Assembly (NCBI GenBank): GCA_005772955.1
Contig: SXID01000089.1
Span: 1-47,458 of the forward strand
DNA: 47,458 bases
Reading direction: 5' to 3'
From: Planctomycetia bacterium
GTDB lineage: Bacteria; Planctomycetota; Planctomycetia; Gemmatales; Gemmataceae
The position numbers and the translations under genes are program-made. Each line of letters opens with the position of its first letter. Positions within the stretch are counted from its first letter, which is position 1. This document shows positions 16,569-47,458 of the stretch, in pieces. The notes beneath the pieces are model-generated. The model was not told the origin of the DNA. It made no database searches and saw only the letters and a list, made by a program, of their open reading frames with translations.

Positions 16569-16791
16569 GTGCAGGCCGAAGGCCCAATGACACGTACTTT
16601 GGTGTTTGCCCTGTATTGGTCTTCGCCCTGAAGGGGCGGGATATCTTAGCCCAGGGCAACGCCCTGGGTACGAGGCCGTTTGATCTCCAGGCTTAAGGCC
16701 TGGGACAGGTGGCGTGCCGCACTTCAGGGTGCAAAGACTACCCGTGCGAACCCAGGGCTAAGATATCCCGCCCCTTCAGGGCGAAGACCAA
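16569..16791. repeat. Composite palindromic (REP-like) element
   Basis: Two perfect 37-base inverted arms (16616-16652 and 16755-16791) enclose about 100 bases. Inside and beside them are smaller palindromes: GGCCGAAGGCC near 16573, CCCAGGGC-AAC-GCCCTGGG at 16650-16668, CCAGGC/GCCTGG at 16688-16703 and GCACTTCAGGGTGC near 16724. No coding frame crosses it. The form recalls repetitive extragenic palindromes mobilised by REP-associated (RAYT) transposases, though none is in the window. Confidence 0.82.
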
Positions 16792-23238: not shown

Positions 23239-23399
23239 TGTCCACTTCCGGTATTTTCGTGGTGGATTCGCTCTTTACGAACATAACCGCAATGTGGGCC
23301 GCGAAACCAACTACCTTCAGTTACCTCCGCTTCTCGTCACCTCCCCAAGCCACCGGCAGACCGCTGTGGGCGTAGCGAAGAAGGTTAACGGAGGGCCTG

Positions 23400-30667: not shown

Positions 30668-30678
30668 GGCACACCAGG

Positions 30679-30699
30679 GTTCAGTGTTCAGTGTTCAGT
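30679..30699. repeat. Heptamer tandem repeat GTTCAGT x3
   Basis: Three perfect copies of GTTCAGT lie in the pyrH-frr gap, 12 bases upstream of frr's start on its strand. Period-7 short repeats of the CAGT type occur elsewhere in the window, notably inside carB. Confidence 0.75.
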
Positions 30700-45679: not shown

Positions 45680-45742
45680 AAAGAGAAAACAGTGAAGAGA
45701 AAGCCAGAACCCCTTCGGCTTTCTCTTCACTGTTTTCTCTTT
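45680..45742. terminator. 26-bp hairpin terminator between convergent genes
   Basis: Arms 45680-45705 and 45717-45742 are perfect complements, with an 11-base loop. It is A-rich on the left arm and T-rich on the right. The arms extend outward with GTGTGAGTG (from 45665) and CACTCACAC. It starts about 15 bases after the SWIM gene's stop and ends 10 bases before carB's, fit for terminating both. Confidence 0.75.
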
Positions 45743-45751
45743 CTGCCACAC

Positions 45752-47458
45752 TCACACTTTTCGAGCCGGGAACCGGTCCTGCAGCGCGGTCACGGTCAGT
45801 TCCTGTTGTTTGAGCGCACGGCACGCTTCTACGGCGGCTTGCGCCGCGGAGATTGTGGTAATCGCTGTCACACGACTGGCGACCGCTTCGGCCCGAATCT
45901 TCGACTCATCGGTCGAGCTTCCGCGACCGGTTGGCGTGTTGACGATCAGTTGCACTTTCCCATTCTTCATGTGGTCGAGCAGGTTCGGCCGTCCCTCCGC
46001 GATTTTCGGCACATCTTCGACGGGAACGCCGCGGTCGCGCATGTACTGGGCCGTGCCGCGGGTCGCGATCACCTTGAAGCCTAACTCCGCGAACCCTCGG
46101 GCAATCGGCACCACAGCTTCCTTGTCGCGGTGGGCGACCGAGATGAACACCGTGCCCGAGAGTGGCAGCGGGGAACTGGCTGCGAGCTGCGCCTTCGCGA
46201 ACGCCATCGGCATGCTGTCGTCGATACCCATGACCTCGCCGGTGGACTTCATCTCTGGGCCGAGGATGATGTCCACGCCAGGGAATTTGTTGAACGGGAA
46301 CACACTCTCCTTGATCGAGTAGTGTTGCGGGATCACCTCATCCTTCACACCCAACTCGTCGAGTGTCTTGCCGACCATCACGAGCGCCGCGAGCCTGGCG
46401 AGGGGCACCCCCGTGGCCTTCGACACGAACGGAATTGTGCGGCTCGCGCGGGGGTTCGCTTCGAGGATGTAGACCTTCGGCGGGTCGGTCGCGATCCCGT
46501 CGGCGCGGATGCCCGATACCGCGAACTGGATGTTCATCAAGCCCTTCACGTTTAGCGCCGCAGCCAACTTCCGTGCCTGAACCTTGATCACCGTGATGAC
46601 CTCAGCGGGCAGGCTGTGCGGCGGGATCACGCATGCGGAGTCGCCGGAGTGGATGCCGGCCTCTTCGATGTGCTGCATCACGCCGCCGATCACGGTGCGG
46701 ATGCCGTCGCTCAAGCAATCGACATCGACCTCGGTTGCGTTCTCGAGAAACTGGTCGATCAGAACCGGTCGGTCCTTCGACAGGTCCGGTTCGACGCGGC
46801 GGATGTAGGCGCTGAGTTCGTCCTCGTTGTAGACGATCTTCATGTCGCGTCCGCCGAGCACGAAACTCGGGCGCACGAGGATCGGGAAGCCGATTCGCCG
46901 GGCGACGCGGAGCGCCTGCGATTCGTCCACCGCGGTACCGTTCGAGGGCTGGAGCAGCCCGATTTCGGTGACGAGTTTCGCGAAACGCTCACGGTTCTCC
47001 GCGATGTCGATGCTGTCCACGCTGGTGCCGATGATCGGCACGCCGGCCATTTCGAGCGGCGTCGCGAGGTTCAGCGGCGTTTGCCCGCCGAACTGCACGA
47101 TCACGCCTTTCGGCTTCATCCGGTCGTTGATGTTCAGCACATCTTCGGGCGTCAGCGGCTCGAAGAACAGATGGTCCGACGTGTCGTAATCGGTGCTGAC
47201 GGTCTCCGGGTTCGAGTTCACCATGATGACTTCGTAGCCGTTGTCGCGGAGTGCGAACGCGGCCTGTACGCAGCAGTAATCGAACTCGATCCCTTGCCCG
47301 ATGCGGTTCGGTCCACCGCCGAGGATCATGATCCGCTGCTTGCCGCTCTCGGCTCGGACTTCGTCCTCGCCAGCCGGCAGTGGGCAGTGGGCAGTTGGCC
47401 GGGAAACACGGGCGTGACAGCCCACAGCCCACTGACCACGGCCCACCACTCCCCCGTG
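45752..47458 (-). CDS. carB: Carbamoyl-phosphate synthase large subunit, C-terminal half (start lies beyond the window)
   Basis: About 569 codons of a protein of normally 1070. The second ATP-grasp domain is plain: IMILGGGPNRIGQGIEFDYC, NSNPETVSTDYDTSDHLFFE, GVIVQFGGQTPLNLA, RPSFVLGGRDMKIVY and ILEANPRASRTIPFVSKATG. The last ~130 residues are the allosteric MGS-like domain (TVFISVAHRDKEAVVPIARG, VQLIVNTPTGRGSSTDESKI). The enzyme makes carbamoyl phosphate for arginine and pyrimidines, and the C-half phosphorylates carbamate. The first ~27 visible codons are alien: heptamer-repeat DNA read in frame before EDEVRAES. No internal start fits; the frame is open to the edge. Confidence 0.95.
   Translation of the reverse strand, partial: HGGVVGRGQWAVGCHARVSRPTAHCPLPAGEDEVRAESGKQRIMILGGGPNRIGQGIEFDYCCVQAAFALRDNGYEVIMVNSNPETVSTDYDTSDHLFFEPLTPEDVLNINDRMKPKGVIVQFGGQTPLNLATPLEMAGVPIIGTSVDSIDIAENRERFAKLVTEIGLLQPSNGTAVDESQALRVARRIGFPILVRPSFVLGGRDMKIVYNEDELSAYIRRVEPDLSKDRPVLIDQFLENATEVDVDCLSDGIRTVIGGVMQHIEEAGIHSGDSACVIPPHSLPAEVITVIKVQARKLAAALNVKGLMNIQFAVSGIRADGIATDPPKVYILEANPRASRTIPFVSKATGVPLARLAALVMVGKTLDELGVKDEVIPQHYSIKESVFPFNKFPGVDIILGPEMKSTGEVMGIDDSMPMAFAKAQLAASSPLPLSGTVFISVAHRDKEAVVPIARGFAELGFKVIATRGTAQYMRDRGVPVEDVPKIAEGRPNLLDHMKNGKVQLIVNTPTGRGSSTDESKIRAEAVASRVTAITTISAAQAAVEACRALKQQELTVTALQDRFPARKV
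47376..47449. repeat. Heptamer-repeat segment inside the carB reading frame
   Basis: Plus-strand heptamers CAGTGGG, CAGTGGG, CAGTTGG (47378-47398) face CAGCCCA, CAGCCCA, CTGACCA (47418-47438), so the arms are period-7 and partly inverted (TGGGCTG on the other strand). The translation there (GRGQWAVGCHARVSRPTAHC) has no counterpart in the family. The segment may extend beyond the edge. Confidence 0.8.

Follow-up and report, generated by a model that had tools for sequence, protein, structure and literature searches.

How did heptamer-repeat DNA come to be read as part of CarB in a bacterium of the Gemmataceae? The question is raised by the end of contig SXID01000089.1 (Planctomycetia bacterium, GCA_005772955.1), all 47,458 nucleotides of which were analysed and are referred to here as the window. 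The C-terminal half of carB, identified with NCBIfam and Pfam models, occupies positions 45752-47458 of the minus strand, with its stop codon at 45752-45754 and its other end open at the contig end. It contains the second pre-ATP-grasp domain, the ATP-grasp domain and the MGS domain (Pfam CPSase_L_D1, CPSase_L_D2 and MGS) and matches NCBIfam NF003671 over positions 543-1053 with 726.9 bits, which is above the CarB family cut-off of 599. The closest named locus, from a 'Gemmataceae bacterium', is 93% identical. The second half begins with EDEVRAESGKQRIMIL (47321-47368, minus strand), a conserved block that is common to relatives and aligns with E. coli CarB from approximately residue 549.

Directly before EDEVRAESGKQRIMILGGGPNRIGQG, the frame encodes a repeat-derived peptide of 30 residues, HGGVVGRGQWAVGCHARVSRPTAHCPLPAG (47369-47458, minus strand). 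The underlying DNA is an imperfect inverted repeat of GTGGGCA / TGCCCAC heptamers. One arm consists of CAGTGGG heptamers (47376-47399, within a period-7 array spanning 47368-47399), the other of CAGCCCA/CCCACTG heptamers (47420-47443, within an array spanning 47417-47446). Over 24 nt the two arms are 83% complementary, and the period-7 and inverted-repeat scores of the linker were matched by none of 200 dinucleotide shuffles. An Rfam scan of the window at the gathering threshold gave no match at the hairpin and recovered tRNA and Acido-Lenti-1 only. The minus-strand frame is free of stops from 45752 up to 47458, which confirms a first-pass annotation of this DNA in its claim that repeat DNA is read in frame before the second CarB half. 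That annotation put the insert at 27 residues or more; 30 can be read, and this lower bound is set by the contig end. In an AlphaFold2 model with a mean pLDDT of 80, linker residues 1-10, 11-20 and 21-30 score 26, 22 and 33, and residues 1-31 all lie below 50 and are without secondary structure. Few alignment rows reach the linker, so low confidence is partly expected there and the support for disorder is weak. We infer that the peptide may be a disordered, near-neutral spacer.

The window ends exactly where its contig does (C59, 47458 bp, in an assembly of 278 contigs), and this end falls in the linker, so that neither the left edge of the linker nor the whole carB gene can be read. The N-terminal half was not found in the 278 contigs using the C-terminal half as query and the family model, a family search that was positive in 14 out of 14 control genomes. 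The upstream neighbour gene of carB in the relative G001 also had no match in the assembly, but this query came without a positive control and is uninformative. Since the genes upstream of carB differ between G001 and another relative, G012, the gap to the N-terminal half could not be bridged. The alignment with the near-finished genome G016 extends almost to the contig end, stopping a few bases short of it, which weakly suggests that the contig may stop close to YSTYE. A separate intact carB, which had been named as one observation that would speak against an insertion, was searched for in the assembly and none was found.

Comparison with relatives shows that the joint between the two CarB halves is longer throughout the family than outside the order. 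E. coli CarB reads YSTYEEECEAN at approximately 544-554, and the distance from YSTY to GGGPNRIG is 17-19 aa in all nine relatives outside the order. In 70 Gemmataceae relatives it is 22-89 aa, and the linker exceeds 19 aa in all 76 genomes of the order from which it was extracted (70 from the family and six from the sister family). The first-pass annotation gave the usual joint as approximately YSTYEEE, and indeed a YSTYE(E)EDE joint is found in 9/9 relatives outside the order and in 50/67 named outgroup loci, which are practically insert-free. Two of the remaining 17 outgroup loci, L121 (Phycisphaerae) and L151 (Planctomycetaceae), reach the period-7 threshold; of these two, the comparison with shuffles covered L151. 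In an alignment of 46 CarB proteins longer than 900 aa, length varies most at the linker, where up to 55 extra residues are seen compared to 19 at the next sites. Elsewhere in the protein, six genomes (L053, L055, L056, L159, L160 and L164) have a common loop insert in the N-terminal half, ending in FLSACFEP, near residue 343-347 of G012 CarB.

We then asked how often family linkers contain repeats. CarB matches were found in 85 family genomes and 71 linkers entered the main test, two of which (G005 and G108) are shorter than 24 nt and were counted as negative untested; the linkers of G018, G043, G051, G080, G082, G085, G098, G100, G101 and G103 were left out. Either period 7 or an inverted repeat was detected in 21 of the 71 linkers but in only 6 of 544 control windows of the same length, taken beside 68 of the linkers (Fisher P = 2e-16). 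For period 7 alone the counts are 12/71 and 0/544 (Fisher P = 2e-12). The thresholds were set after the first linker results, and the linker count is thus not blind; 50 of the 71 linkers are negative for repeats at these thresholds. A later test took in four linkers missed by the pattern, of which G061 and G064 were positive and G023 and G054 negative, giving 23/75. These results agree with the earlier view that an insert is tolerated in the interdomain linker.

The linker content turns over, even between sisters. The 21 inserts fall into 15 sequence clusters (BLAST E 0.01, single linkage), few of them share sequence, and at least 12 changes of state are required on a quick CarB tree with 24 open forks. 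In G070 and G071 the carB flanks are 95.6 and 98.5% identical and the linkers are unrelated, one being a CACAGAT-type hairpin (below threshold) and the other a GCGGAAT heptamer hairpin. The linkers of G001, G004 and G084 have period 7 without strong inverted arms, those of G003, G014 and G049 contain non-heptameric hairpins, and that of G016 resembles a decayed copy and fails the test (lag-7 P 0.075). The carB gene of G022 (L066) even contains three in-frame elements, one in the linker and one each in a loop of the N-terminal and of the C-terminal half; the two loop inserts, hairpin or heptamer, lie at frame positions of approximately 1064-1133 and 2767-2799. Three further observations concern single linkers or loci. 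Tandem copies in the G059 linker (L198) give SPYPSANAAG repeats, and its sister G060 has a short related sequence. By eye, hairpin cores with different arms in the G001, G015 and G109 linkers seem to share GAGAACAC. Finally, the stop-to-stop carB frame of G014 (L054) has, close to its beginning (positions 164-247), an inverted repeat of very high score (40), which is probably upstream of the carB start.

Is the linker unit confined to carB? In 289,726 bases of the host genome, comprising 20 stretches plus the window, of which the window and the C19 stretch were picked for known arrays, there are 20 lag-7 arrays, compared to 0-1 for lags 4, 5, 8, 10, 11 and 13. Seven inverted pairs account for fourteen of these 20 arrays, and the RNA folding energies of the seven stretches range from -49 to -92 kcal/mol. 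By our grouping the GTGGGCA unit is present at about 18 loci. As a reversed control pattern gave 31 matches against 52 real ones, some weak loci may be due to chance or to another unit. At 15 of these loci the unit lies outside recognisable genes, as judged from ORF limits and GC3, one case (C242, L317) being uncertain; some arrays that touch gene starts and were counted here may be N-terminal extensions. One heptamer arm, at L228:6673-6710, supplies the N-terminal residues (TIHPSSLTPHPSP) of a frame predicted to encode a transporter and is possibly such an extension.

At the other three loci the unit is read in frame within a gene, namely carB, trmB and a Ser/Thr kinase gene. The trmB copy (C19:37936-38027, PF02390) is flanked by the N-terminal RKPRRLS..LAPW and by LFGNANPVEIEVG, both of which are present in relatives. 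The kinase copy (C118, approximately 23260-23344; PF00069, Pfam 93-367) lies between HRDLKPANIL and SDFGL. TrmB linkers are also variable in the genus: 17 loci were collected, four of them without a parse, and among the 13 parsed ones clear repeats are seen in the host and in G014, a marginal one in G001, and none in ten. The account in the first-pass annotation is thus incomplete: the linker is a hot spot across the family, with different hairpins, and besides carB two further genes of the host carry the GTGGGCA unit in frame.

That such DNA can be read at all follows from its period. Because 7 and 3 have no common factor, all three frames of a heptamer array encode one and the same cyclic heptapeptide, here (VGSGQWA)n and (HCPLPTA)n. 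Owing to the inverted symmetry the orientation makes no difference either, so a stop-free unit can be translated at any landing site, and only stops within the unit and the net length matter. A fraction of 0.504 of all heptamers is stop-free on both strands, so the absence of stops from the repeat, which the first-pass annotation reported correctly, is weak evidence. Of six frames, the three in-gene hairpins have 5, 5 and 3 open, compared to 4, 1, 1, 0 and 1 for five other hairpins, although the numbers are small. The same annotation implied selection for an in-frame length. This stands to the extent that net frameshifts are lost, and no further: the bounded hairpins measure 71, 92 and 85 nt, none of which is a multiple of 3. 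Ohno is said to have worked on repeats of base oligomers.

The unit is dispersed in relatives as well. Sixteen genomes were examined, and it is frequent in the host, G001, G014 and the near-finished G016, the last of which has 107 matches compared to 0 for the control, and gave no match in G007, G019, G069, G022 and G105. Forward and reverse counts are nearly equal in the four richest genomes (14/20, 27/20, 57/50 and 26/33; reversed-pattern controls 6/4, 0/0, 0/0 and 0/2). Other linkers carry other families: the carB insert of G105 has 117 overlapping matches in its own genome, 49 in G109 and two each in G071 and the host, and none in the finished genome G104 of the same genus, the linker of which is plain.

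In our judgement the stretch in the window is probably one copy of a dispersed, non-autonomous family of inverted-heptamer hairpins, tolerated in a disordered CarB linker that has been refilled repeatedly. The in-frame reading, the dispersed copies, the two other genes and the hot spot with its turnover are observed; copy number and site turnover suggest that the copies move, rather than that arrays are converted by one another or slip. An element would consist of arms of about 3-5 heptamers, inverted around a short core. Its copies would settle mostly outside recognisable genes, and an occasional one landing in a gene would persist only where the protein can accommodate an unstructured loop and the net length leaves the frame intact. 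In Gemmataceae, the junction of the CarB halves would be such a tolerant place, filled and refilled by unrelated hairpins. A search for a mobilising enzyme found none: a lag-7 array is present at one of eight Y1-transposase loci (23,210 bases), approximately as array density predicts, and RAYT as the mobiliser is thus unsupported. More tentatively, and with considerable doubt on our part, inverted heptamer arrays could be a separate class of mobile palindromes of Planctomycetota, readable in any frame and orientation, with the CarB linker as a standing trap in which unrelated members have been caught many times (15 clusters among 21 inserts), at a rate fast enough for linkers to differ even where the carB flanks of two species have 96-98% identity.

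Alternatively, the linker DNA itself might have grown into heptamers in each lineage by local slippage, without any movement between loci. PMC4679880 reports the view that heptamers may promote slippage of the polymerase, and the G001, G004 and G084 linkers, lacking strong inverted arms, would fit. We nevertheless consider slippage unlikely, in view of the inverted arms, the many copies of the linker unit elsewhere in the same genome and the non-heptameric hairpins at the linker site of G003, G014 and G049. Somewhat less probable still is that the insert was selected for a function in CarB, such as the spacing of the halves or control by a hairpin at the RNA level. The long linker in every genome of the order does imply that some spacer is old, but neither its sequence nor its length (22-89 aa) is kept between sisters, the linker is predicted to be disordered, albeit from a shallow alignment, and like inserts occur in unrelated proteins.

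An artefact of assembly, at this contig end or in draft genomes generally, has to be weighed too, since the window stops with its contig, the N-terminal half is missing and, among the genomes tested, all 15 that consist of at most 60 contigs are negative (P 0.0025). Like the window, the G061 (L186) and G064 (L172) contigs break off within the linker repeat, and the G023 contig stops in a linker that is plain; the CarB joint seems to break assemblies. Part of the link with contig number is thus due to repeats that break assemblies, and more of it may come from clade or isolate bias. Against an artefact, arms that are only 83% complementary are not a fold-back copy, the trmB and kinase copies are internal to their contigs, several relatives (G014, G022, G049, G071 and G081) have the hairpin within a contig of 90-250 kb, flanked to left and right by the gene in frame, and of the 36 host contig ends examined only that of the window has an array, all of which makes an artefact very improbable. 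Finally, carB could truly be split, with the C-terminal half a separate gene starting near 47449 (GTG), as the failure to find an N-terminal half might suggest. But no such half was found at all, although the pathway needs one, and both halves lie in one frame in 35 of 38 relatives' loci, the other three being cut by contig ends, so that we give a split gene hardly any credence.

Dispersed inverted-heptamer hairpins invite comparison with several known systems. In cyanobacterial STRR, heptamers are over-represented in intergenic DNA, and the host shares these traits, with a period-7 excess (20 arrays compared to 0-1 at other lags) that is mostly intergenic. Rickettsia palindromic elements (RPE) are described in PMC10969869, which cites Ogata 2000 and 2002, and in PMC3767692 as dispersed in-frame palindromes of metabolic genes that fall in solvent-exposed areas, with different groups sometimes near one another in orthologues. 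By description, the present elements are alike in being dispersed palindromes in frame in conserved genes (carB, trmB and the Ser/Thr kinase gene; three genic out of about 18 loci). They differ in their Gemmataceae hosts and in arms that are tandem heptamers of a changing unit, with a peptide independent of frame and orientation. The TAACTGA heptamer repeats of Beggiatoaceae and cyanobacteria are mostly intergenic with some in ORFs, where a repeating peptide was noted (PMC4679880). In contrast to the present arrays they are direct rather than inverted, have a single fixed unit that contains stops on one strand and, where they fall in ORFs, are mostly close to the ends of the protein. In Xanthomonas and Nostoc, G-rich heptamers are over-represented in intergenic DNA, with inverted arrangements mentioned, and under-represented in coding regions (PMC4692102), whereas here heptamers are captured in conserved enzymes. 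REP, GTAG and CGTC palindromes have been reported from Planctomycetes, some of them inside genes; their units measure 20-40 bp and come with tetranucleotide tags and with RAYT transposases (PMC3733652). We saw no tie to Y1 transposases, and the likeness is one of description.

In-frame palindromes, REPs in genes and heptamer arrays in ORFs are thus already known (PMC10969869, PMC3767692, PMC3733652, PMC4679880). Among the matches listed, open-access titles and the beginnings of abstracts do not mention CarB or planctomycete proteins as hosts of heptamer hairpins. For the spread of short palindromic and heptamer repeats in bacteria, largely an open question, a conserved single-copy gene with a tolerant joint offers a record of repeat arrivals: close relatives have plain or filled linkers, and the arrivals can be mapped onto a tree. 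The CarB linker may act as a natural trap that records this spread. It also provides a case, outside Rickettsia, of repeat DNA turning into new protein sequence in conserved enzymes.

Three other features of the window were recorded. An Acido-Lenti-1 RNA (Rfam RF01687) lies at 16624-16668 on the minus strand. A heptamer array of TTCAGTG (3.6 copies, 30675-30699) is located inside a stop-to-stop frame of 353 codons and may be upstream of the real gene start. Downstream of carB, between convergent genes, a long near-perfect hairpin (AAAGAGAAAACAGTGAAGAGAAAGCC...) occupies 45680-45743 and is perhaps a bidirectional terminator or another repeat.
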